Origin: Acidiplasma aeolicum
GTDB taxonomy: Archaea; Thermoplasmatota; Thermoplasmata; Thermoplasmatales; Thermoplasmataceae
Assembly (NCBI RefSeq): GCF_001402945.1
Contig: NZ_LKBG01000253.1
Location: forward strand, 1 to 36,082
DNA length: 36,082 nucleotides
Direction of reading: 5' to 3'
Positions 56 to 34,153 of this stretch are shown one piece after another. A model generated the notes under the pieces. It did not search any database. It was not told the DNA's origin and saw only the letters and a program-made list of their open reading frames with translations. Each line of letters begins with the position of its first letter. The stretch's first letter is position 1. The position numbers and the translations under genes were made by a program.

Positions 56-1006
56 ATGAATATACTCGATGTTGACAAAAGACTTAATATGAAAATGAAA
101 ATTGTGATATCATCTGATTCATATATATTTAGATGGTCAAAGCTGCATAATTTAAATATGACGCTTTTTTTCAGGAGCCAGGAAAAGAAGAATTATGCAA
201 ATGTATTCATTTATAAGGATAAAAATAAAAAAATTCCGAAAGAGCTTCTTGAATCTTATGGTGCATCGGAATTTGAAAATTATTTTTATGTAACAGTACA
301 AATATCAAATGAGAAAATAATAAATTTAATAAATGAGCTGGTTCAGGTTAAATCATTAAAGCTATCAGAAACAACAATAGAGGATGGCAAATTGATTATT
401 AGATGCAGATTTCACAGTGATTACAAAGCAGAAATCTCGCAAATTGTAAACAGATATCTTCTTATTCCATATTTTATAGATGATATATTAATAAAGGAGT
501 CTGAGGGTTACAAATATTTAATGTTTAAAAAAAACAAAAGGACAGGGCTGGCAGTCATAAAGTACAGCGTTCCGTTTGACATAAAAAATCTGGGATATGG
601 GGCTAATTTAATTGAAAATAGAAATCTTGTGGCAGAGGCCATAAATGCTTTTTCTGATGATGAGAGTTTTAAAATTTTAGTTTATTCCGATTCTGAACTT
701 GAGGAAAATGATGAATTAAAATGCATTTCAAAAAATGCATTAATTTATGAAACATACATAAAAGATCCATTGTTTTTACTCATGAAGGAAAGATTAAATA
801 ACCATGGCATATTCAGGGATGGGACATATATCCAGATTAAAGATGGGAATGTAATCATAACACAATTTTTAAGTTCGTTTAGAGTCAATGAATATCTTCA
901 AATTATGTATTCATCCGGCATGGAAATATATAAGGAGAACATTATAAAGCTTAAAATGTGCTCTGATATTTACGATGAGGTTTTCGATGATTTAAATATA
1001 GTATAA
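56..1006 (+). CDS. Unknown protein, paralogue of the 3761-4678 gene
   Basis: I do not recognise a family for this 316-residue protein. It has no clear membrane segment, signal peptide or cysteine cluster and looks soluble, with alternating strands and helices. It aligns over its whole length with the protein at 3761-4678: both start with a D-x-x-L-x-M segment, share an F-[KR]-I-[LI]-[VI]-[LI]YS block about two thirds along, and end with a [FY]R-x-x-EY-[LI] block followed by MEI. The two genes flank a KaiC-like ATPase and a membrane glycosyltransferase on the same strand, so a shared job is likely. The ATG at 56 follows an A/T-rich TATA-like stretch; a second in-frame ATG lies at residue 12. 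No function can be assigned. Confidence 0.75.
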   Translation: MNILDVDKRLNMKMKIVISSDSYIFRWSKLHNLNMTLFFRSQEKKNYANVFIYKDKNKKIPKELLESYGASEFENYFYVTVQISNEKIINLINELVQVKSLKLSETTIEDGKLIIRCRFHSDYKAEISQIVNRYLLIPYFIDDILIKESEGYKYLMFKKNKRTGLAVIKYSVPFDIKNLGYGANLIENRNLVAEAINAFSDDESFKILVYSDSELEENDELKCISKNALIYETYIKDPLFLLMKERLNNHGIFRDGTYIQIKDGNVIITQFLSSFRVNEYLQIMYSSGMEIYKENIIKLKMCSDIYDEVFDDLNIV

Positions 1007-1028
1007 TCTTAAAAATTAAAAATTAATG

Positions 1029-1064
1029 TATTATATTTAAGCGAAAGTATTATATTTTAAGCAT
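1029..1064 (+). promoter_or_regulatory. Duplicated TATA-like element upstream of the KaiC-like gene
   Basis: Two near-identical A/T-rich words, TATTATATTTAAGC at about 1029 and ATTATATTTTAAGC at about 1049, lie one after the other 20 bases apart. The second sits about 20-29 bases before the TTG start at 1078, the spacing expected for an archaeal TATA box driving a leaderless or near-leaderless message. The first could be a second promoter or chance in A/T-rich DNA. Confidence 0.35.
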
Positions 1065-1077
1065 ATATTAAGTAGTA

Positions 1078-2190
1078 TTGGCAGGAAATATATCAACTGA
1101 TATTTTGCAGCGAATTGCGTCAAAATCGTTTTCTCTGGATACACATGCATTAAAAGTTGAGGCAAATTATTCTATAACTGGCATGTCAGGGACAGAATAT
1201 CATTTTGATTATATTGTATTTTCCGGAGGGGAAAAAATTGCCATAAAAATTTCCTCTGACGTATCATCTATAAATGATATAATGCTTTTTAATTCACATT
1301 GTATTGACAGCGGAATTGATAAAAAGATAATGATTGCCAACCGTGAATTAAATGAAAATGAAAAAAGGATGTGCCAGGCCTTTGGCATCATAATAGCGGA
1401 TATAAAAAATTATGAAAATGATGAGTTATATTCAGGAAGGGCAAAGTTTGGAATTCCAGAGCTGGATGCAAAGCTTGCCGGCGGATTGAGGCCTGGATAT
1501 GTTTATCTAATATCAGGAAAGACAGGAGCAGGTAAAACTACCCTTTCCAGCATGTTTTTAAGCTTTGGTGCAAAAAATAATGAAAAGGGTCTAATGGTTT
1601 TAACCGATACATTTCCGGATCAGTTTTTGGATAATATAAGAACAATGGACATAGGCTTTGGAGAGGCATATGAAAATAAAATGATAGAGATAATGGAAAT
1701 ATCAGACCAGATAAGGGTCATGAAGTCTGAGGTTTCTTCAGGTAATACAGATTTCAGAAAATTTATTACTAAAATTATTACAGAATTAAAAAGAATAATA
1801 ATTACAAAAAACATAAAACGCGTTGTTATAGACCCTGTTACATTACTGCTTATACCTGATGATGATTACATAAACCTATTCCTTAACAGCCTTGCAATGA
1901 AGGATGTTACAGTTATTATAACAAGTGGATTGAGAACCACTGAATTAAGCGTTTTTGGTATGGAGGAATATTATGTTACAGGTATTATCAAGCTTGATTA
2001 TGTAACTACCGGCGAAAATATAGATAGAACATTAAGAATTGTTAAAATGAGGGGCTCAATATTTGATTCCACCCCATCAAGGTTTAAAATTACTTCCGCT
2101 GGAATAATAATGGATGGAAAAAATTCAGGAATTTCTTCCCCCCCCGCGAATTCTGGGAGTTCAGACATATTTAAAAATATAGGTGATTAA
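1078..2190 (+). CDS. KaiC/RecA-like ATPase with extra N-terminal domain
   Basis: This 370-residue protein has a KaiC-type ATPase core. Walker A is GKTGAGKT at residues 147-154, preceded by a typical FGIPELD...GGL entry at about 124-136. Walker B ends at Asp252 (RVVID). The tail has the KMRGS...F-I-T-x-x-GI segment common at the end of archaeal KaiC domains. Residues about 25-110 form a separate alpha/beta domain with an HFDYIVF...IAIKI strand pair, which recalls the restriction-endonuclease-like fold, but the usual acidic residue of the E-x-K motif is Ile, so it would be inactive or a different fold. TTG at 1078 is the only plausible start before residue 36. It probably acts as an ATP-driven regulator or signalling switch for its neighbours; the partner is unknown. 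Confidence 0.8.
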   Translation: MAGNISTDILQRIASKSFSLDTHALKVEANYSITGMSGTEYHFDYIVFSGGEKIAIKISSDVSSINDIMLFNSHCIDSGIDKKIMIANRELNENEKRMCQAFGIIIADIKNYENDELYSGRAKFGIPELDAKLAGGLRPGYVYLISGKTGAGKTTLSSMFLSFGAKNNEKGLMVLTDTFPDQFLDNIRTMDIGFGEAYENKMIEIMEISDQIRVMKSEVSSGNTDFRKFITKIITELKRIIITKNIKRVVIDPVTLLLIPDDDYINLFLNSLAMKDVTVIITSGLRTTELSVFGMEEYYVTGIIKLDYVTTGENIDRTLRIVKMRGSIFDSTPSRFKITSAGIIMDGKNSGISSPPANSGSSDIFKNIGD

Positions 2191-2211
2191 CTGAAAAAAA
2201 GAATATTTATC

Positions 2212-3720
2212 GTGGCAAATATTCTTTCAGTACTGTCCATTATTTTTATTATAGCTGGGATTATATCCTCTTTATATGCTGCAATTATTTTAAAGCACGG
2301 AAATTTAGAGGAATATATTTTTACCTTCTGGTTCTGGCTTGCCACGGTTTTCTTTGGAATACAAAGTATTTCATACTTTATATCTTTCAGGAGAAGCGTT
2401 TATAAGTATCCTGATACCATAAATTCCGCATATCTGCCGTCATTAAGAAACAGGGTGGCCATTCTGGTACCAATATTTAACGAGGATATAAATATGTGCA
2501 TAGACAATTTGCTGGCAATTCATACAAATGCAGGAAATTATGCAGATATTTATGTACTTGATGATTCCAATAAGGTCGATACAGAACCCATTAAGGAGAT
2601 ATGCCAGAAACTTAATTTACACTACATACACAGGAATAACCGTAGCGGTTATAAGGCCGGCGCATTAAACAATGTTTTGAGAACACTTAATGTAGAGTAT
2701 GTGGCTGTGATAGATATAGACCAGACGCCTGCACCGGATTTTGTCAGGGAGACTGTTGCCCTGCTGGATAGTCATCCAGAGGCTGGATTTGTTCAGGTTC
2801 CGCAGGTATATGCCAACACTGACAGTGGTGTTCTTCCAGAGCTGGCCCAGGCGCAACAGTTTTTATTTTATGAAATTTTAACAGAGGGGAAGAGTGTAAC
2901 AGGATCATTATTCTCATGCGGTACAAATGTTATTTACCGGCTTAATGCTTTAAAATCAGTAAATTATTTTGATGAAACAAATATAGTTGAGGATATAGCC
3001 ACATCACTAAATTTAATAGCCAGGGGATGGCACGGGCTTTACTATAATAAAAAACTGGTATTTGGAAGGGCCCCAACAACAATGCAGGGATATGTAAACC
3101 AGCAATCAAGATGGATGCTTGGATCTTTGTCACTTGTACCCAAGGTTTTTAAAAACATAATTTTTTCAAAAAAATACAGCCTGGTGGAAAGGATTGACTG
3201 GTTTGCGGCTGCTACGTGGTATTTCTTCGGATTCTTTTATATTGTTTTTCTAATAGCCCCGTTTCTTGATGTCCTCGGTATAAAGGTTCTAACCGTTAAT
3301 AGCATCATATATTTTTTTGCATGGCTTCCATATACAATTATAGTAATGTTTTCATTCTTTTATTCAAATGTATCAAAGGGTGCTCCATTTAGGTATTTAT
3401 TATACAATATGGGTGCAAACATGCTTATGTTTTCATTGAGCATACAGTCTGTGATTTATGCAATTCTAAGAAAGAAAAAACCGTTCACCACTGCAAGAAC
3501 AGGAGGTACAATGCCATGGAGATGGTTCTGGCCGCAGTTCACCATGATGTTTTTATTGGGATTTTCATCTGTTTACCTGATAATACACTTTTCTTTGTAT
3601 AATGCAATTACTGCATTCTGGGCAGTATTTCAGTTCATTTTATTTATACCGGTTATATTTATTAACAGACCTGTAAAACAATCAGAAATGGACATGCCAG
3701 TATTTAAAAATGCAAATTAA
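2212..3720 (+). CDS. Membrane glycosyltransferase family 2, cellulose-synthase-like
   Basis: A 502-residue processive-type GT2 enzyme that should use a nucleotide sugar at the cytoplasmic face and pass the glycan into or across the membrane. Two N-terminal membrane helices (about 4-28 and 35-58) precede the catalytic domain: Asp117-Asp118 in LDDS, DID at 168-170, the acid in VED at 259-261, and QQSRW at 297-301, the Q-x-x-R-W of processive synthases. Five or so more helices follow. The start is uncertain: GTG at 2212 has no Shine-Dalgarno sequence. In-frame CTG at 2191, just after the previous stop, would add LKKRIFI, which looks like a natural N-terminus. Downstream of the KaiC-like gene by 21 bases, so probably co-transcribed. 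The product could be an exopolysaccharide or glycolipid. Confidence 0.85.
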   Translation: MANILSVLSIIFIIAGIISSLYAAIILKHGNLEEYIFTFWFWLATVFFGIQSISYFISFRRSVYKYPDTINSAYLPSLRNRVAILVPIFNEDINMCIDNLLAIHTNAGNYADIYVLDDSNKVDTEPIKEICQKLNLHYIHRNNRSGYKAGALNNVLRTLNVEYVAVIDIDQTPAPDFVRETVALLDSHPEAGFVQVPQVYANTDSGVLPELAQAQQFLFYEILTEGKSVTGSLFSCGTNVIYRLNALKSVNYFDETNIVEDIATSLNLIARGWHGLYYNKKLVFGRAPTTMQGYVNQQSRWMLGSLSLVPKVFKNIIFSKKYSLVERIDWFAAATWYFFGFFYIVFLIAPFLDVLGIKVLTVNSIIYFFAWLPYTIIVMFSFFYSNVSKGAPFRYLLYNMGANMLMFSLSIQSVIYAILRKKKPFTTARTGGTMPWRWFWPQFTMMFLLGFSSVYLIIHFSLYNAITAFWAVFQFILFIPVIFINRPVKQSEMDMPVFKNAN

Positions 3721-3760
3721 AATATGAAAACATTTTAATATAAATATTAAATAATATACT

Positions 3761-4678
3761 GTGGAGATAGAGGATATAGATAATAAACTGGACATGCACT
3801 TTGAGATACATTTCAATGACTGGTCCAAGATTACTGAGATATCAAGGGAGCTTTCTTATAACGGTGAAATAGCAATAATATCGGAAGAAAAATCAATATA
3901 TTTCTATGTTTTTTTCCCCAAAAATGATGCCGATAAATACAGATACCTTTTTCCGTTGTTTGATGTTGAGGAAAGAAAAAATTATTTTATGGCACTTGGA
4001 AGGATAAATAATAGAAATATAAAGGATACAATTGACAGTATATCCAATATAGACGGATTAATTATTAATTCATACTGGCTTAAATCAGGAAGCATAGTAA
4101 TGGAGGGTTACTTCCATCATAATAAGCTGCAGGAATTTTCCAATATAATTTTATCCCAGATTGTTCAGGCTAAAAATATAAATAAAATATTGTTAAGGCC
4201 GGTTAAAAGCATATATGCCAACATTAGAAACAGCTGCCAAAATTTTAAAAATATAGTAATTAGCATAAAGTATGATGAATTTAACAATGCCAGGGTTGCC
4301 CAGCTGCTTAAAAATACAGATACAATTGCCCAGCTTATAGATAATTATCCGGTTAATAATAAATTCAGAATAATTTTGTATTCAAATGATGATTTAACAA
4401 AATATGATGGTATAAATATAATATCAAGGGAGGATGGAATTTACACAACCAAAATAGAGGATGATTTTCTTGCAATATTAGGAAAAAAAACATTTGAATC
4501 AAGAATATCGTGGCAGTACTCTTTTATATATGAAAAAATGGGAAGAATTTATGCCAGTTTTTTAATACCTGATTACCGTGCAAGGGAGTACATTGATATG
4601 ATTATTGCATTGCAGATGGAAATAAAGAGAATGGATCTTGTTACAATAGAAAATTATTCAAATATCAACGAAAATTAA
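3761..4678 (+). CDS. Unknown protein, paralogue of the 56-1006 gene
   Basis: A 305-residue protein of unknown function that starts with GTG. It is a diverged copy of the 316-residue protein at 56-1006. Shared landmarks include DxxLxM near the N-terminus, FRIILYSNDDL against FKILVYSDSEL in the last third, and an EY-[IL]-x-[MI] segment ending in MEI near the C-terminus. I see no membrane helices, metal sites or nucleotide-binding loop. It lies 40 bases after the glycosyltransferase on the same strand and ends 3 bases from the convergent queD. The pair may form a heteromer or bind the same ligand, but this is inference. Confidence 0.75.
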   Translation: MEIEDIDNKLDMHFEIHFNDWSKITEISRELSYNGEIAIISEEKSIYFYVFFPKNDADKYRYLFPLFDVEERKNYFMALGRINNRNIKDTIDSISNIDGLIINSYWLKSGSIVMEGYFHHNKLQEFSNIILSQIVQAKNINKILLRPVKSIYANIRNSCQNFKNIVISIKYDEFNNARVAQLLKNTDTIAQLIDNYPVNNKFRIILYSNDDLTKYDGINIISREDGIYTTKIEDDFLAILGKKTFESRISWQYSFIYEKMGRIYASFLIPDYRAREYIDMIIALQMEIKRMDLVTIENYSNINEN

Positions 4679-8046: not shown

Positions 8047-8397
8047 ATGGTAATGTGTGTCATGTATAATTTAAAACTTAAAAATGTGCATCCATCAACA
8101 ATATGTGTGCTGCTTTCCAAATTTGAGGATTCATTTAATGCGCTGCTGGATGTGATTACATCCCCGCTTCCAGAGGATAGCCTTGAGGAATTCATAGAGG
8201 GATATGCAAGAACCGACGAAATTATGCCTGAGGACAAAACCATTGGTTTTATAATAATAAATAAGGAAAAGAAGGTTGTGTCGTTAACCTTCACCCAGAA
8301 TACCGGAATAGTAAGGCAGAATGTTGAAAAAATACTGGAAAAATATAAAAAACTTGGATACAAAACCGAGGTGGAGTACGCAAAAACTCCATATTAA
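8047..8397 (+). CDS. Unknown small alpha/beta protein
   Basis: A 116-residue protein I cannot place in a family. Residues 25-60 are acidic and helical, followed by two strands (TIGFIIINKEKKVVSLTF) and a C-terminal helix with repeated lysines. A TATA-like AATATAAATT at 8021-8030 lies about 20 bases before the ATG at 8047. Two further ATGs at 8053 and 8062 are in frame, and the 8062 start (MYNLKLKN) gives the more natural N-terminus. The stop overlaps by four bases the stop of the convergent 83-residue gene. Confidence 0.55.
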   Translation: MVMCVMYNLKLKNVHPSTICVLLSKFEDSFNALLDVITSPLPEDSLEEFIEGYARTDEIMPEDKTIGFIIINKEKKVVSLTFTQNTGIVRQNVEKILEKYKKLGYKTEVEYAKTPY

Positions 8398-24595: not shown

Positions 24596-27500
24596 ATGGA
24601 AATAATGATACACAAAAGAATGTTTTCGATTATGCATAAAAGGCTTGATCATAAATTTATACAGCTCCTGCAGAGGTTTAATGATTCACATGATTATGGC
24701 CCCATAATAGATTACTTTAGGGATAATCTGGAAAGCATTAAAAAATATTATAATAAAAATATTGCAGATATATTGTATAATTATTTGAAATTTAATGATA
24801 TACCGGAAGAATTAAGAAATTTAATATATTCTGTTGACCCGGAAAATAAAATTTTTGACACCATAAAATTAAAAGGTTTTATAAAAAATGATGATTTCAA
24901 CAGTTTTATAGATTATCTAGGTTCAAAAAGGGAATTGATTAATGATGATTACATAGCATCACTTTTAAATAATTTCCTGGATAAACGGCCAGAGTTTGAC
25001 CGTGTATATTACCTTATATACTTTGGTAAATACAGCGCTGATCTAATTAATGAATACCTTCAAAAGTTTTATAATTATGATGATTTCAGGAAACTTGTGG
25101 ATCTTATCATTGAATTATATGGTAAGGATTATGCCATGGATGCAATTAATAATTGCATTTCCATCAATAATGATATAAGGTGTATGTATTTGCTTGGTGA
25201 TCTGCTTCTTGAAACTGGCCAGAAGGAAAAATTAATACCGCTTGTAAATAAAATTATATCGCTTAACCCAAAAAAACCAAATATGAGGATAGCAAGGTAC
25301 CTGTTCTACACAGGCAATTACAAGCAAAGTATAGATTACATGATATTATCAGATAACACCAATCAGATGCTGGCAGATGCCTATTATTATTCAGGGAATT
25401 ATGAAAATGCACTTATAATATATAAAAATATATACTATAATATTAATAAAAATGTTATAAACAGAATTATTGAAATAGAGTATAAAATAGGCGATTATGC
25501 ATCCACGCTTACATATATAAATTATAATAAAAATAACCTAAGCAGAGAACAGCTTATATATAAAATAAATTCAGAAATAAACCTATTAATGTTTTTCGAG
25601 GCCGAGGATGATATTAAAGAGTATCAAAAACAGTACGGAACAGACAATGACATATTGAAACAGATGCTAATTTATTACCGTAAAAACGGCGACATTGACC
25701 TTGAGTTTGAAACTGCATTAAACTTGGTTAAAAATAATTCTGCTGATGATTTTGTATACAGGACAATACTTAACTATTATTATAAAAATGGTGAGAATGA
25801 AAAAATTATAAATTTTATGGAAAAACAAAATATAATGGAAAGGTATCCTGAATATTATATTCCGGCGTTAATATACACCAATAAGTTTGATGCCGGGCTT
25901 GCACAAATAAATAAAAACCCTTCAATACTGGGTAATGGCAAGGTCATTGATACAATCTTTTTATTTAGCAGGAATAACAGGTTTTTGGAATTTTTTGAAA
26001 AGTATAAGTATGATTATGAACTGCTTTCTTTAATAATTGATTTTTTAAAGGGCAGGAAAATAAAGGACCCATTTAGTTACATAAAGTCTGTAATAAATTC
26101 AGGGTCAATTTCGTGTGCCTATATTATATCATTGATTACAATAAATTTTGAAAAACATTCAATACCAAAAAAAATAAATGATATGCTGGACATGGACAAA
26201 TTTAGGGATATAAAAATTTTAATTGAGAACATCATGGATATCTATTCTGGAATTATTGATACTGCTGAGCATGATTCCAAATATTTTATATACCCTGTTA
26301 CGGAAACATTAATAAGATCAGGGAGGATGGATCAGGCCCTTTCTTTGCTTGGAAGCATGGATGGATTCGATAATGATCCGTTCATAAATTATTTCATGGC
26401 ACTTATTAAATATTATAAAAAGGAGTATTCAGATGCAAAACGTTACATTAATTATGCCATAGAAAAGCTTGACAATGAAAAATTTATGGCTGTGAAATTT
26501 TTAATATACTTAATAGATAAAAATTCAGATATGGTAGATATAGCCAATACAATTTCTGATAAAGATATGTCATGTGTTTATCAGTATGTTTATGATATGA
26601 TACTTCAGGCAAACATTGTTCCTAATGAGGATATTTATGCTAGACTTAAAAACCTGAATATTGATGATATAAATTTGCTTAGAATAAAGAGATATTTTGC
26701 AAATAATTTTAAAGACAGAATTCAATATTCTGCATTAATTCTAAAAAATGGATTAAATGTAAGCGATGTGATCAAGCACTATTATATAATTTATGAGGAA
26801 AATCCTGATAACGCAGCCAGATTTTTATTAAAAACAGGTCTTGTAAATTATAAAATTTATTCAATTTTGGGTGATTATTATTTCTCAAAAAAAATGTATA
26901 ATGAGGCCATATTTAATTATCTTATGGCCTATATAAGAAAACCTGAAGCGAACTTAATTAACCTTAAAACGCTGCTTGAATCCGTAGATATTTATGGCAA
27001 TTCAATTGATTACCTGAAATCAATTGGTAATTATTTCCTTTTATCTGTTTTATATATTGTAAAGGGTGATTTAATACCCCTCGGTGATCTACTAGTGGAA
27101 AAGAAATTAAGAAGAATTTATTCATTTGCAATTTTAAAGGATTTTGATTCTCCTGTAATTATGAATGCCCTTAAGGACGTTTTCAATGAAACACATGATA
27201 ATGTTATTGGTGAGCTGATTGCCGATGGTTTTATACATAATGAAAATTATGATGAGGCTGAAAAAACACTCAAGATTGTTTATTATTACAACAGAAATAG
27301 CCAGGCCATTCTTTTAAAGCTTGCACATGCAGAGTATCTAAATAATAATGAGGAGGAATCCATGTACCTTTTAAAATCAGGTTTCAGAAGGTTTAAATCC
27401 ATTTATTTATTTAATTTATTAATAGATTTTTATTATTCAATCAGGAATTATGAAGGTATATTAAACATAAGCAAAAAATTCCAGAATCTTATAAATTCAA

Positions 27501-28123
27501 ATAATATTAAATATATTTTATATTCATATGCGAGACTTTTTATGTATAATGATTTATATTTAATGGAAACAAAGTACCAAGGCATGATAAACCATGAGGT
27601 AAAATCTGAATTAAAAAATAGAAAAATAGCCTCATTGAAATTTAAAAACGTTATAGAATACGCAAAATTAATTCTGAAAAAAGAATATGATAATAATAAA
27701 ATAATTGACAGAGAGCTTGCAACATCAATTATTCCGGAATATTTCATAAATGAGGTTTATGATTTTCTGGAATCCAGGGAACCGTACACATTCATAGATA
27801 AATATAAGTATAACCAGATGTCAATAGAAGTATTAAGGGCGATTCGTAATATGGGCATTAAAAATATACATGAGATTAAGATATATCACATAAATCATAT
27901 TTTAAATGATGTTATAAAATCAAAAAATTTTTATATATTTCTTAATTGGGCCATGAATAATGAAATAAATATTAATATTTCAAAGGCCGCCCTTGCAATG
28001 TATAAAGACCTGGAAAATAAACCAGGATCAATTATGGATATTGTATCCAGATTTAATATAGGCGTTCTTGATGCCATAAATATACTGGATTCGGTTAACA
28101 GAGAGATTAAAAATGATGTATAA
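24596..28123 (+). CDS. Giant TPR-like helical-repeat protein
   Basis: A 1175-residue soluble protein made of helical repeats almost throughout, the largest gene in the window. TPR-like units can be seen, for example around residues 240-300 (two-helix units with NYKQSIDY, YSGNYENALIIY), 595-630, 750-775 and 880-950 (NENYDEAEKTL). No signal peptide, membrane helix, catalytic motif or cysteine cluster was found. The last 60 residues contain IMDIVSRFNIGVLDAINIL, which could be a helix-turn-helix. Sequence is rich in Asn, Ile, Lys and Tyr. It overlaps the start of an M50 peptidase gene by 11 bases. Such proteins usually act as scaffolds; the partners are unknown. Confidence 0.75.
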   Translation: MEIMIHKRMFSIMHKRLDHKFIQLLQRFNDSHDYGPIIDYFRDNLESIKKYYNKNIADILYNYLKFNDIPEELRNLIYSVDPENKIFDTIKLKGFIKNDDFNSFIDYLGSKRELINDDYIASLLNNFLDKRPEFDRVYYLIYFGKYSADLINEYLQKFYNYDDFRKLVDLIIELYGKDYAMDAINNCISINNDIRCMYLLGDLLLETGQKEKLIPLVNKIISLNPKKPNMRIARYLFYTGNYKQSIDYMILSDNTNQMLADAYYYSGNYENALIIYKNIYYNINKNVINRIIEIEYKIGDYASTLTYINYNKNNLSREQLIYKINSEINLLMFFEAEDDIKEYQKQYGTDNDILKQMLIYYRKNGDIDLEFETALNLVKNNSADDFVYRTILNYYYKNGENEKIINFMEKQNIMERYPEYYIPALIYTNKFDAGLAQINKNPSILGNGKVIDTIFLFSRNNRFLEFFEKYKYDYELLSLIIDFLKGRKIKDPFSYIKSVINSGSISCAYIISLITINFEKHSIPKKINDMLDMDKFRDIKILIENIMDIYSGIIDTAEHDSKYFIYPVTETLIRSGRMDQALSLLGSMDGFDNDPFINYFMALIKYYKKEYSDAKRYINYAIEKLDNEKFMAVKFLIYLIDKNSDMVDIANTISDKDMSCVYQYVYDMILQANIVPNEDIYARLKNLNIDDINLLRIKRYFANNFKDRIQYSALILKNGLNVSDVIKHYYIIYEENPDNAARFLLKTGLVNYKIYSILGDYYFSKKMYNEAIFNYLMAYIRKPEANLINLKTLLESVDIYGNSIDYLKSIGNYFLLSVLYIVKGDLIPLGDLLVEKKLRRIYSFAILKDFDSPVIMNALKDVFNETHDNVIGELIADGFIHNENYDEAEKTLKIVYYYNRNSQAILLKLAHAEYLNNNEEESMYLLKSGFRRFKSIYLFNLLIDFYYSIRNYEGILNISKKFQNLINSNNIKYILYSYARLFMYNDLYLMETKYQGMINHEVKSELKNRKIASLKFKNVIEYAKLILKKEYDNNKIIDRELATSIIPEYFINEVYDFLESREPYTFIDKYKYNQMSIEVLRAIRNMGIKNIHEIKIYHINHILNDVIKSKNFYIFLNWAMNNEININISKAALAMYKDLENKPGSIMDIVSRFNIGVLDAINILDSVNREIKNDV

Positions 28124-29504: not shown

Positions 29505-30587
29505 ATGTTAATTTATTTTATTTTGCTTGTAATATATATAATCATTTTACTGCTTGTATCTCTTGGATTTATTTTAATAGAAACACATAAAAATGTAAAT
29601 GATGATATAGAAAACAATTACAGGCCAAGAACGCTTGTTATGATACCATGCCGTGGTGTGGATTATTCACTGGAGGAGAACCTTAAATCTATAATTAATC
29701 AGGATTATCCAGATTACCATGCTGTTACAATTGTTGATTCCCCTGATGACCCTGCATGCAGTATTATAAATAAACTAAAAATAGACTGCATTGTATCAGA
29801 TTTTCAGTGCGGTAAATGCAGTGGTAAGGTGCGGGCCCTATGCACTGCAATTGAAAAATATCCCGATTATGAAGTTTATGTTATTGCTGATTCTGACATT
29901 CTGGTCTCATCACAGTGGCTTAAGTATCTTATTATGCCACTTGGAATTGATAATGCCGGAATTTCCACAACCTTTCCATATTTTAAACCTGTTGGAGGAT
30001 TCTGGAGCAGGGTTAAGGAGGTTTGGGGGTTTGTTGGCATGGGCCTTATGGAGGCAAAACTAACAAGATTTGGGTGGGGAGGTTCTCTTGCATTCAAAAA
30101 ATCTCTGCTTAACAATTATTTTGATTATTTTTGCAGCAATATATCGGATGATACAGCACTAACAAAAATAGCCAAGGATAAAAATCTGGATCTTTATTAT
30201 GTAAAAAGGGCAATGCCTGTGGTAAATTCTCCAGAAAATTTTGAGCAGTTTTTTGAGTGGGCAAACAGGCAGACCGCTCTATCAATTGCTGCATCAAAAA
30301 AGATATTTTATTATGGAATTTTATTCTATTTTTCTTACATGTTTCTGTTTTTCTCTGCCATATTTGCAGGCATATTTTATAACAAACTCTTTTTATTATT
30401 TTTAATACCGGAGATATTATATATTTTGAACATGATTAGGCGTCTCAATAAGGTATCGCCTGAAAATGTAATTGCCGCAATTTTAATGCCATTTATTTAT
30501 ACAGTTAATCTTTTCATGGCAAACAGAATGAAAAATATTACATGGCGTGGCAGGGTTTACAATATAAAAAATAAAAAATTATTATAA
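29505..30587 (+). CDS. Membrane glycosyltransferase family 2
   Basis: A 360-residue GT2 enzyme with one N-terminal helix (3-25), a cytoplasmic catalytic domain and two to four helices at the C-terminus. Asp78 in IVDSP, ADSD at 128-131, SDD at 214-216 and the EWANRQ segment at 251-256 are the donor and acceptor sites. Q-x-x-R-W is not strict, so it may add a single sugar to a lipid, as in ceramide-glucosyltransferase-like enzymes. Its ATG follows the aEF-1B stop with no gap, and the phosphosugar mutase gene starts 19 bases after its end. Confidence 0.83.
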   Translation: MLIYFILLVIYIIILLLVSLGFILIETHKNVNDDIENNYRPRTLVMIPCRGVDYSLEENLKSIINQDYPDYHAVTIVDSPDDPACSIINKLKIDCIVSDFQCGKCSGKVRALCTAIEKYPDYEVYVIADSDILVSSQWLKYLIMPLGIDNAGISTTFPYFKPVGGFWSRVKEVWGFVGMGLMEAKLTRFGWGGSLAFKKSLLNNYFDYFCSNISDDTALTKIAKDKNLDLYYVKRAMPVVNSPENFEQFFEWANRQTALSIAASKKIFYYGILFYFSYMFLFFSAIFAGIFYNKLFLLFLIPEILYILNMIRRLNKVSPENVIAAILMPFIYTVNLFMANRMKNITWRGRVYNIKNKKLL

Positions 30588-30606
30588 ATGCATACAATAC
30601 CATTAT

Positions 30607-31944
30607 ATGGAATTACATTTTTTTGGAACCAATGGGATAAGGGGTATACCAAATGATGATCTGTCAGCTGAATTCTCCATGGATGTTGGAAAGGCCATGG
30701 CAACATTCTTCAGTGCTAAAAAAATAGCCATGGCAAAGGATACAAGGATAACAGGAGATATGATATTAAATGCAGTCTCATCTGCAGTAATGTCCGCAGG
30801 CACTGATGTGGTTTATCTTGGTATACTGCCAACACCTGCACTGCAGTATTACTGCAAAAAAAATCATGTTCCGGGAATTATGATAACTGCATCCCATAAT
30901 CCACCACAGTATAACGGCATAAAGGCAATAGATATGGATGGAACAGAAATAGATGAGGAAAAGGAATATGAAATAGAAAAATTAATAATGAATAAAAAAT
31001 TTAAAAATGTTTCATGGGAAAATGCAGGAAGGTTTTATTATGATGATACTGCAGTGGATTTATACATAAATGGCATAATATCACTGATTAATTTTAAAAA
31101 GATCTCAGAGAGAAAATTAAATGTGGCCATAGATACCGGAAACGGTGCATCATATTATACAAGCCCGCTTTTACTTTCCAGGCTCAACTGCCATATAGTA
31201 ACGCTAAATTCAAATCCTGATGGAAAATTTACAGGACGAAATTCTGAGCCAAAACCAGAAAATCTGCAGGATCTTATAAACATTATGAAAACTGGCAAAT
31301 TCGATATAGGCATAGCACACGATGGTGATGCTGACAGATGCGTATTCATAGATGAAAATGGTAATTTTATAGATGGAAATGAAAGCCTGGCCTTAATAGC
31401 AAAATATACATTAAGGGCCGGGGAAACTCTTGTTACCCCAACAAGCAGCTCTGATGCATTAAAGGATGTGTGCCAGCAAAAAAATGCAAAAATAATTGTA
31501 ACAAGGGTGGGTGCCCCGATTGTGGCCAGAACCATGATAGAAAACAATGCTGTGATTGGAGGAGAGGAGAATGGTGGTGTCATATATGGTAAACATCAGT
31601 TCTGCAGAGATGGCGCCATGACAATGTCATTAATGCTCAACCTGCTTGCCTGTGAGAATAAAAAAATAAGTGAACTGCTAAGGGAGATACCAAAATATTA
31701 CATGGTAAAAAAGTCAGTACCCAGAAAATATGACTGGGATGTTATTAAAAATAAATTACTTGATGCACTGGGAAATAAAAAAACAGATCTACTTGACGGA
31801 ATAAAGATATATGAGGATTCAGGCTGGGTTTTAATAAGGCCATCGGGCACAGAAAAAATATTAAGAATATTCACAGAATCTAAAAACGAAAAAACTGCAA
31901 TGGATCTTAATGAAAAATATATTAATATAATAAACAAATTATAA
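30607..31944 (+). CDS. glmM: Phosphoglucosamine/phosphomannomutase family enzyme
   Basis: A 445-residue alpha-D-phosphohexomutase that moves phosphate between C6 and C1 of a sugar. FGTNGIRG at the N-terminus, phosphoserine site Ser96 in TASHNPP, metal loop DGDADR at 239-244, sugar loop GEENGG at about 325 and phosphate site RPSGTE near residue 418 are all present. GlmM (glucosamine) is likelier than a phosphomannomutase in this clade, but the substrate is not decided by sequence. It feeds nucleotide-sugar synthesis for the nearby glycosyltransferases. Its end overlaps the convergent CDP-alcohol gene by six bases. Confidence 0.87.
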   Translation: MELHFFGTNGIRGIPNDDLSAEFSMDVGKAMATFFSAKKIAMAKDTRITGDMILNAVSSAVMSAGTDVVYLGILPTPALQYYCKKNHVPGIMITASHNPPQYNGIKAIDMDGTEIDEEKEYEIEKLIMNKKFKNVSWENAGRFYYDDTAVDLYINGIISLINFKKISERKLNVAIDTGNGASYYTSPLLLSRLNCHIVTLNSNPDGKFTGRNSEPKPENLQDLINIMKTGKFDIGIAHDGDADRCVFIDENGNFIDGNESLALIAKYTLRAGETLVTPTSSSDALKDVCQQKNAKIIVTRVGAPIVARTMIENNAVIGGEENGGVIYGKHQFCRDGAMTMSLMLNLLACENKKISELLREIPKYYMVKKSVPRKYDWDVIKNKLLDALGNKKTDLLDGIKIYEDSGWVLIRPSGTEKILRIFTESKNEKTAMDLNEKYINIINKL

Positions 31945-32559
31945 ATTTTTATATATGTCAAAAAATCTGGTTATTGCATTTATATTTCCAGCTATGCCAA
32001 ACCATATTAGAAGGATGCCGGTAACATACAGTTTTATATTATAAACATCAAAATGCCCGGTTACAAATATCTGTATTAATGTAAAAATCATCATTAAAAC
32101 GAGCCTGTCGGCCCTGCCTGCTATACCCGAGTAATCCCTTTTTAGCCCCAGTGCCTGTGACTGTGTACCCATGTAGCTTGTCAGTAATATGCCTAAAATT
32201 GCAAACAGACCAAGGTATATGTTACCGAAAATAGAAAACGACATGCCGAGGACAATAAATATATCTGAATACCTGTCAAAAACATGGTCTATAAGGTCTC
32301 CCTTTTTGGATGCAATATTTTTTAGCCTGGCAATCTTGCCATCCAGCGCATCAAAAAGGGCGGAAAAAATTAAGAATATAAATGATAAAAATAGAATATA
32401 CTTACTAAAAAATGATAAATAATAAAATATCCCGGCAAATGCTGCAAAAATCAATGATGAAACAGAAATTGTATTGGGATTGAGCATTAAAAATTTTTTG
32501 GATAATGGCACCAGTATTTTATCTGCCTTTGATCTGTAGGAATCCAGAACCATATACAT
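31939..32559 (-). CDS. CDP-alcohol phosphatidyltransferase, archaeal lipid type
   Basis: A 206-residue membrane enzyme that joins a CDP-linked lipid to a polyol. The full D-x2-DG-x2-AR-x8-G-x3-D-x3-D signature is seen: Asp70, Asp73, Gly74, Ala77, Arg78, Gly87, Asp91 and Asp95. Six helices are predicted. The likely product is archaetidylinositol phosphate, as in related archaeal proteins, but archaetidylglycerol or serine synthesis is not excluded. It follows the 33973 glycosyltransferase after 22 bases. An in-frame ATG at residue 3 is possible. Confidence 0.85.
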   Translation of the reverse strand: MYMVLDSYRSKADKILVPLSKKFLMLNPNTISVSSLIFAAFAGIFYYLSFFSKYILFLSFIFLIFSALFDALDGKIARLKNIASKKGDLIDHVFDRYSDIFIVLGMSFSIFGNIYLGLFAILGILLTSYMGTQSQALGLKRDYSGIAGRADRLVLMMIFTLIQIFVTGHFDVYNIKLYVTGILLIWFGIAGNINAITRFFDIYKNL

Positions 32560-32581
32560 ATATTAATAATTAATTATTAAA

Positions 32582-33973
32582 TTATTCCTTATTTTTTTGC
32601 CATGTATCCTTATAAACAAGATAAAATGTTGATATGTAACCCATGGAATAGTATAAAAGCCAGAGTCCTGTTAAAAGATAAAAGTGTATTAAATAAAATA
32701 AAGATCCGGCAATGAAAAAGATTCCAAATGCCAGAATGGCATAGATATTTGATGGCATTTTATGACCGGCACCCTTTGGTGTTATCCTGTAAATCCTCCT
32801 TGATTTAAATGCCCTGAATATCCATAGCAGAACAAATGGGGAGATGGCAACAGTGTAGGATGATAACCTGCCCATGGCAGAAACTGCTTTTTTGGCATTT
32901 ATATTAAATTTATCACCGATTTTAACGAAAACATATGCATATAACCCAAGGAGGATTATCCATAGAAAGAACAGTGGATTAAATAATATGTCAAAATGTA
33001 TAAATGGTGATATTATTACAAGGGCAATGGCCATTAAAAATGTAAGAACAAGCGGTATGTACTGTAATAAAAATGCAATAATGTCCAGCCTTTTAATAAT
33101 TCCTATTTTTGATGATATTATGTACCTAAACCGCCGGCTTAAAACCTCCATGCTTCCCATGGCCCAGCGTGTCTGCTGGGTATAAAATGCATTGAATGTG
33201 TCTGGAACCTCTATTTTTATATTGGCATCAGAACTTTTTATTTTTTTGCCGGCATGTATAAGCCTTGTGCCGATCTCCAGATCATCCTGTATCATTTCAG
33301 GGTCCCACGAATCCACAGCATTAAGGGCATCCCTCTTGAAAAGTGTTCCACATCCAACAGGCATTACAGGCATGCCTGCATGGTCCCTGCCAGTTATTAT
33401 CGAAGTATTTGTGTAATATGTTGATATTATAAGAGAATTTACGGTTGTTGATTCCACATTTCCATAGCCAATCCAGTTCATGGTAACGGCATCGGCATTT
33501 TCGGCCATTATCTGGGCATACCCCTTTTTTATTGAATCACTATATATCCTTGCATCAACATCCATTGTAAGTATAAGTTCCCCCGTTGATTTTTTAAAAC
33601 CGTCATGCAGCGCGCCGCTTTTATAACCCCTTTTATTAATTCCACGCCTGTAAAAGATAACCTTTAGATTTTCAGGTATTTTTACCCTCTGCTGCATCTC
33701 CTTAAAATATTCCTCTGTATCATCAGAAATTATAATTACTTCAATTTTGGATTTATCCCATTCAGCATTATCAATATTTTCAAGAAGTCCCTGCACAGTC
33801 TCTATTTTTTCACCCTTTGTTGGCACCAGTATGGATAATGATGGCATGGATGCAACCTGAAGGTCCTTATATTTATGATTTACTCCGAGGTAATAATAAA
33901 CCAGCTGTGCCAGAATAAGCAGTATTGTGGGCAAAAATATTAAAACTGGAATAATATAATAGGCATCATTCAT
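32582..33973 (-). CDS. Processive membrane glycosyltransferase family 2
   Basis: A GT2 enzyme related to hyaluronan/cellulose synthases. SDD at residues 86-88, DVDA at 141-144, QDDLE at 232-236 and QQTRW at 269-273 (numbering from the GTG at 33982) are the donor, catalytic and acceptor sites. One N-terminal and about five C-terminal helices anchor it. Two starts are possible: GTG at 33982 sits directly after GAGGA, while ATG at 33973 has GAGGAG eight bases upstream, the better spacing; I use the ATG (463 residues). It is followed by the CDP-alcohol transferase. Confidence 0.86.
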   Translation of the reverse strand: MNDAYYIIPVLIFLPTILLILAQLVYYYLGVNHKYKDLQVASMPSLSILVPTKGEKIETVQGLLENIDNAEWDKSKIEVIIISDDTEEYFKEMQQRVKIPENLKVIFYRRGINKRGYKSGALHDGFKKSTGELILTMDVDARIYSDSIKKGYAQIMAENADAVTMNWIGYGNVESTTVNSLIISTYYTNTSIITGRDHAGMPVMPVGCGTLFKRDALNAVDSWDPEMIQDDLEIGTRLIHAGKKIKSSDANIKIEVPDTFNAFYTQQTRWAMGSMEVLSRRFRYIISSKIGIIKRLDIIAFLLQYIPLVLTFLMAIALVIISPFIHFDILFNPLFFLWIILLGLYAYVFVKIGDKFNINAKKAVSAMGRLSSYTVAISPFVLLWIFRAFKSRRIYRITPKGAGHKMPSNIYAILAFGIFFIAGSLFYLIHFYLLTGLWLLYYSMGYISTFYLVYKDTWQKNKE

Positions 33974-34153
33974 TGGTTCCACTCCTCAATTCATGTAATT
34001 CCTGTTCTATAATGTGTGAAATACCATTGATTTTATATTGAATATTTGATTGAATGTACATTTACTGGCGTAATCAAAAGTTATTATTTAATTTTTACAT
34101 ATTAATTTAGAAAAATACAATAAATTTATTAATTTTAATTTGCATACCCAAGA

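Follow-up and report, generated by a model that had tools for sequence, protein, structure and literature searches.

In Escherichia coli, the N-terminal domain of BcsE is predicted to be KaiC-like with a degenerate Walker A motif, and the protein oligomerises and recruits parts of the cellulose-secretion apparatus to the membrane (PMC7439463). Archaeal KaiC-like ATPases have been proposed to act as signalling hubs (Makarova, Galperin and Koonin, 2017, as cited in PMC5847659 and PMC6393860), and inactivated versions of KaiC (iKaiC, MEDS) also occur (PMC5847659). Here we describe a cluster of four genes from Acidiplasma aeolicum, located at positions 56–4678 of contig NZ_LKBG01000253.1 (assembly GCF_001402945.1), in which a KaiC-like ATPase and a family-2 glycosyltransferase (GT2) of the cellulose-synthase type lie between two genes of the Ta1207 family. 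The stretch analysed, referred to as the window, comprises 36,082 nucleotides (positions 1–36,082, forward strand). Judged from its genes, the arrangement, found in acid-loving archaea, has the appearance of a hitherto undescribed unit that controls the making of a surface sugar polymer. To our knowledge, little is known about how surface-polymer synthesis is controlled in archaea without cyclic di-guanosine monophosphate (c-di-GMP) signalling, and the cluster offers a compact, genetically linked candidate for such control.

Layout and conservation of the cluster

The four open reading frames lie on a single strand with small gaps, in agreement with the initial annotation. Protein A (316 amino acids; 56–1006) is followed on the forward strand by the KaiC-like ATPase (370 amino acids, TTG start; 1078–2190), the glycosyltransferase (502 amino acids, GTG start; 2212–3720) and protein B (305 amino acids, GTG start; 3761–4678), separated in turn by 71, 21 and 40 bases. 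The contig begins where the window begins, 55 bases ahead of gene A. Both the 71-base and the 40-base gap are rich in A/T and might harbour promoters, so that one transcript for all four genes is only a possibility.

Conservation was surveyed across 117 genomes of the order, using a threshold of E ≤ 1e-40 for the KaiC-like protein, which was present in 26 genomes, with the synthase present in 15. Within the host's family the synthase directly follows KaiC at 17 of the 18 KaiC loci, in four genera; the exceptional locus, in genome G095, has no intact synthase reading frame after KaiC. Likewise, synthases of this type (type 1) are preceded by this KaiC at 17 of 18 places, the exception being in genome G089. 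The two genes are closely spaced (−4 to +6 nucleotides in 11 of 17 cases), and frequently overlap. Ta1207 genes directly flank the KaiC–synthase genes at 14 of the 18 loci: on both sides at six (the window, L051, L052, L174, L175 and L172, the last with an additional intervening gene), only downstream at four (including L171, which lacks the synthase) and only upstream at four. The remaining four comprise two loci with a Ta1207 pair at a distance of ∼2.5–7.6 kb (L055, L058) and two at which the contig breaks off shortly before KaiC (L177, L179). The genes are therefore kept together in relatives, and since the arrangement persists in other species and genera, the cluster is not a chance layout.

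A second, separate pairing was also observed. A further KaiC relative of ∼470 amino acids immediately precedes a synthase of a second type (type 2), the two genes overlapping by 4 nucleotides, at L071 (6396–9304) and L072 (6814–9716), and is present as a contig-edge fragment at L188. CxxC pairs lie close to its N-terminus and Walker B is retained, while FSSGN replaces the GKT region, so that the P-loop is lost; one such copy gave a weak match to MEDS (E = 0.021). The host itself has a second BcsA-like synthase at a contig end (G000:C221:11772–13674, equivalent to L074 7773–9675), and the C-terminal part of a KaiC of this kind lies ahead of it at the contig edge. The existence of this second pairing indicates that the KaiC–synthase association is recurrent and, because its KaiC has lost the P-loop, that the association need not depend on ATP hydrolysis.

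Tree distances for KaiC and the synthase are correlated (r = 0.85, 14 pairs, 0 of 5000 permutations), although species history also gives such a correlation, and the two trees have only 9 of 16 splits in common when type 2 is included. All of the genomes come from one archaeal order and the tree agreement is partly species history, which would be expected if the linkage were inherited synteny without functional meaning. However, the flanking genes change between genera while the KaiC–synthase pair stays, and the pairing exists in a second, separate form. Second copies are paired too: Ferroplasma acidarmanus Fer1 accounts for two of the 18 KaiC loci, and in its genus the genomes with two KaiC loci have a separate synthase at each. 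Moreover, outside a sister family considered below, genomes without this KaiC nearly always lack the synthase, and vice versa. We consequently regard inherited synteny as highly improbable, and are confident that the KaiC and synthase genes are functionally linked.

The KaiC-like ATPase and the synthase

The second gene encodes, as first proposed, a KaiC-like protein with an added N-terminal domain. The KaiC domain (PF06745, E = 1.6e-40; 139.4 bits against a cut-off of 26.6) spans residues 123–345, preceded by ∼115 extra residues, and the predicted structure matches KaiC folds in a structure search. There is a single KaiC/RecA domain, not the tandem CI and CII, with Walker A (GKTGAGKTT) at residues 147–155 and Walker B (VVIDP) at 249–253. 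The tandem catalytic glutamates of solved KaiC structures align with D177–T178, of which D177 is invariant in 33 sequences; since Asp–Thr replaces the glutamate pair, ATP hydrolysis may be slow or absent. Furthermore, no Ser/Thr autophosphorylation pair is present at the place that aligns with the one before the KMRG segment, as judged by the alignment. On the grounds of one domain, no tandem glutamates and no Ser/Thr pair, a clock-type KaiC oscillator was rejected as the default (kaiA and kaiB were not searched for). The earlier suggestion of a KaiC-type switch for glycan synthesis with two partner proteins is in part supported, by the gene linkage and frequent overlap, but is doubtful in the clock or kinase sense.

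In the model, the N-terminal domain (residues ∼1–115) consists of a helix (7–18), three strands (25–34, 40–49 and 52–59), a second helix (65–78) and a further strand (82–87). This α-β-β-β-α-β succession is the element order of restriction-endonuclease-like (PD-(D/E)XK) domains, a likeness in order only, and matches to nuclease profiles were not significant (Mrr_cat, E = 0.071; Mrr_cat_2, E = 0.047; one member each). Within the nuclease motif F-D is often present and the K of (E/Q)xK is not conserved, and from this sequence pattern the domain is predicted to be inactive. The element order and the weak Mrr_cat and Mrr_cat_2 matches would suit a regulator that binds nucleic acid, DNA or RNA, through its nuclease-like domain and acts on the expression of neighbouring genes, not on enzyme activity. 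Against this, the motif lysine is not conserved, the profile matches fall short of significance, no helix-turn-helix was found, and co-synthesis in stoichiometric amounts is favoured by the start–stop overlap between the KaiC and synthase genes. Such a regulator is, in our judgement, improbable.

The third gene had been annotated as cellulose-synthase-like, and the product is indeed a processive-type GT2 enzyme resembling BcsA and CelA. The CelA model TIGR03030 was matched over positions 84–557 of 714 (E = 3.6e-47; 160.8 bits against an equivalog cut-off of 699.1), ending well short of the C-terminal end of the model; CelA and PgaC are the best curated matches, both far below their equivalog cut-offs. 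The aligned type-1 copies keep LDDS, DID, VED (IED in two) and QQxRW. The region of the gating loop (FxVTxK in BcsA) reads PFTTARTG, a stretch resembling that loop, in most type-1 copies and SFKVTPK, with the canonical FKVTPK, in type 2. A Pfam scan showed no PilZ domain on the synthase, and PilZ, GGDEF and BcsB were not detected in the host genome. With no PilZ domain and no detectable GGDEF proteins, the synthase is unlikely to be switched by c-di-GMP in the manner of bacterial BcsA, and this form of control was disfavoured.

At five loci, a gene for a beta-helix protein converges on the synthase gene, often overlapping its end (L095, 12822–13745; L098, 12646–13566; L058, 6363–7358; L177; L180), one copy matching Pfam Beta_helix with E = 0.01. 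As a guess, this protein might modify the polymer.

The Ta1207-family proteins

The outer two genes had been read as diverged paralogues of an unrecognised protein. BLASTP aligned A and B with 24% identity and 49% similarity (306 amino acids, E = 2e-22), and the motifs cited for their paralogy, a D-x-x-L-x-M start, FKILVYS/FRIILYS and EY...MEI, are present. Both can now be assigned to a named family, Ta1207 (PF19020; protein A, 242.9 bits, E = 4.2e-72; protein B, 222.6 bits, E = 6.6e-66; gathering cut-off 26.3), although the function of that family is not known. The AlphaFold2 model of protein A (pLDDT 91.5) is α/β, with repeated β-α-β-β-α-β units according to our own reading of its DSSP string. 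Its sole strong match in the PDB is 5m86 (Ta1207; Foldseek E = 3.9e-17, TM 0.71), which we take to be a homopentamer; a sequence search found no PDB relative of the Ta1207 proteins, and 5m86 came from the fold search only. The two proteins match no housekeeping family.

In a tree of 67 Ta1207 proteins, the copies downstream of the synthase form a clade of 11 with full support, and those upstream of KaiC a separate group of 12 with weaker support. The sister family contributes another two clades, and the copies sampled from genomes that have no such KaiC lie outside the linked groups. This tree was built by a quick method and has several long branches, and its unlinked copies all derive from genomes in which this KaiC is missing. 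Of the Ferroplasma pair at L055, one copy belongs to the downstream clade and one to the upstream group, though both lie upstream. Because upstream and downstream copies form distinct groups, A and B represent two old, separate lineages; a recent duplication was hence rejected, and the proteins look like two old partners that were inherited separately.

In a 400-genome sample of the class, the Ta1207 family is confined to two families of this order, with 72 genomes over the cut-off. The host genome has two Ta1207 genes in total, both at this locus. Genomes lacking this KaiC have up to 14 copies each, and the family is therefore not dedicated to glycan synthesis. Outside this locus no shared Ta1207 partner was found, with no family in more than 2 of 52 scanned neighbours, a weak result from tallies only. 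The cluster provides the first recurrent gene partner seen in this analysis for Ta1207, a family with a solved structure and no known function.

Frames of ∼660 amino acids with Ta1207 matches were also noted (G017:C19:148007–149884, G082:C9:20804–22636 and G100:C8:4636–5457), and are probably two fused copies.

A candidate control unit and its relation to known systems

On balance, we favour a reading in which the four genes together specify a synthase unit for a surface polysaccharide, with a KaiC-type regulator of its own and Ta1207 partners. The GT2 synthase would sit in the membrane, where it would elongate a polysaccharide and probably extrude it, and the KaiC-like protein encoded directly ahead of it would be its most likely regulator. 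An ATP-binding, RecA-fold ring of the latter could dock on the synthase, perhaps via the probably inactive nuclease-like domain, and its ATP state would alter the assembly or activity of the synthase, with the two Ta1207 proteins acting as KaiC partners (adaptor, sensor or scaffold). While a regulatory or assembly role for the KaiC-like protein is likely, we infer the polymer, physical contact, ring assembly and the direction in which control runs from protein anatomy and synteny.

Several observations weigh against a synthase unit. No synthase lies beside KaiC in any of nine loci of the sister family, the majority of Ta1207 copies in the order lie away from this KaiC, and in a published genome survey Ferroplasma and its relatives had no pathway for cellulose or cell-wall polysaccharide listed (PMC3750248). 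In biofilms of Ferroplasma acidiphilum, lectins reveal capsular and colloidal glycoconjugates (PMC4408177).

The nine sister-family loci, all from one genus, have the same KaiC with the N-terminal domain and two Ta1207 genes immediately upstream. Since these are kept without the synthase, the KaiC–Ta1207 association is more widely shared than that of KaiC with the synthase, and glycan synthesis is not an invariant target. Eight of these loci also have genes for large PKD/Ig-repeat surface proteins, convergent from downstream (∼860 and at least 2395 amino acids at L103, 11115–21049; relatives at L059–L062, L064 and L181–L183), and the remaining one is cut off by a contig edge; a second KaiC paralogue in this family has neither Ta1207 nor a synthase beside it. 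These contexts suggest that KaiC and Ta1207 might constitute a module of general use in signalling or surface maintenance that has several outputs, the synthase being only one, lineage-specific client. However, the neighbours in a single genus may be passive, and within the family of the host KaiC is linked to the synthase almost without exception and more tightly than to Ta1207, so that we think a general module unlikely, albeit with some weight.

A bolder form of the synthase unit, which we put forward tentatively and consider doubtful, is a switch independent of c-di-GMP: an ATP-binding ring of the KaiC type, placed on the synthase alongside Ta1207 assemblies, would sense cell state and gate synthesis of the polymer, and the P-loop-dead KaiC would do likewise for the second synthase. 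If true, this would be the first cellular role for the orphan Ta1207 family. The KaiC–synthase unit is testable, because Ferroplasma acidarmanus Fer1 has the pair twice.

The same KaiC with its N-terminal domain also occurs on contigs labelled Micrarchaeota (L109, 9950–12481; L117, 9878–12432) and, at the one locus scanned, adjoins an ATP-grasp (GARS-like) gene and not a synthase; either gene transfer or misbinning would account for its presence. Elsewhere in the window, positions 29505–33982 hold a glycan or lipid gene group with an HpnI-like and a PgaC-like glycosyltransferase, between which phosphohexomutase-like and CDP-alcohol phosphatidyltransferase-like proteins were recognised by reading only. 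A 1175-amino-acid TPR-like protein is encoded in a low-GC stretch (24596–28123), and a protein of the TA0956 family (PF11513), an orphan family with a Thermoplasma-derived name, at 8047–8397.

Among known systems, BcsE of E. coli is, by analogy, the nearest functional parallel, and the cluster may represent an archaeal counterpart of this KaiC-like component of bacterial cellulose secretion. As in the bacterial Bcs system, a GT2 synthase with the D, DxD, ED and QxxRW motifs has a RecA/KaiC-like partner, encoded in the operon in the case of BcsE. Bacterial BcsA carries PilZ, whereas the archaeal synthase does not and the host genome has no detected BcsB, PilZ or GGDEF. Unlike BcsE, the archaeal partner keeps its P-loop and has a nuclease-like domain instead of REC-GGDEF, and we put the likeness forward as an analogy; a c-di-GMP-binding C-terminal part of the REC-GGDEF-derived BcsE type was not found in the KaiC reading frame with Pfam and NCBIfam. 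Ta1207 of Thermoplasma acidophilum (5m86) belongs to the same Pfam family as proteins A and B, and its fold is matched by the model of protein A, whereas in genus g6, which we take to be Thermoplasma, the family occurs in genomes without this KaiC or synthase.

No pairing of KaiC, synthase and Ta1207 was found in the literature searched, in which Makarova et al. (2017) is represented through citing papers. The protein resembles the archaeal KaiC hubs in the fusion of a KaiC domain to a lineage-specific extra domain (PMC5847659), and differs from them in being stably paired with genes for a polysaccharide synthase and for Ta1207 proteins. Finally, the REC-BcsA fusions of Methanobacteriaceae (for example MTH_548; PMC5847659) likewise tie an archaeal BcsA-like glycosyltransferase to a signalling domain, but there the receiver domain is fused to the enzyme, whereas here a separate KaiC-like protein is encoded alongside it.

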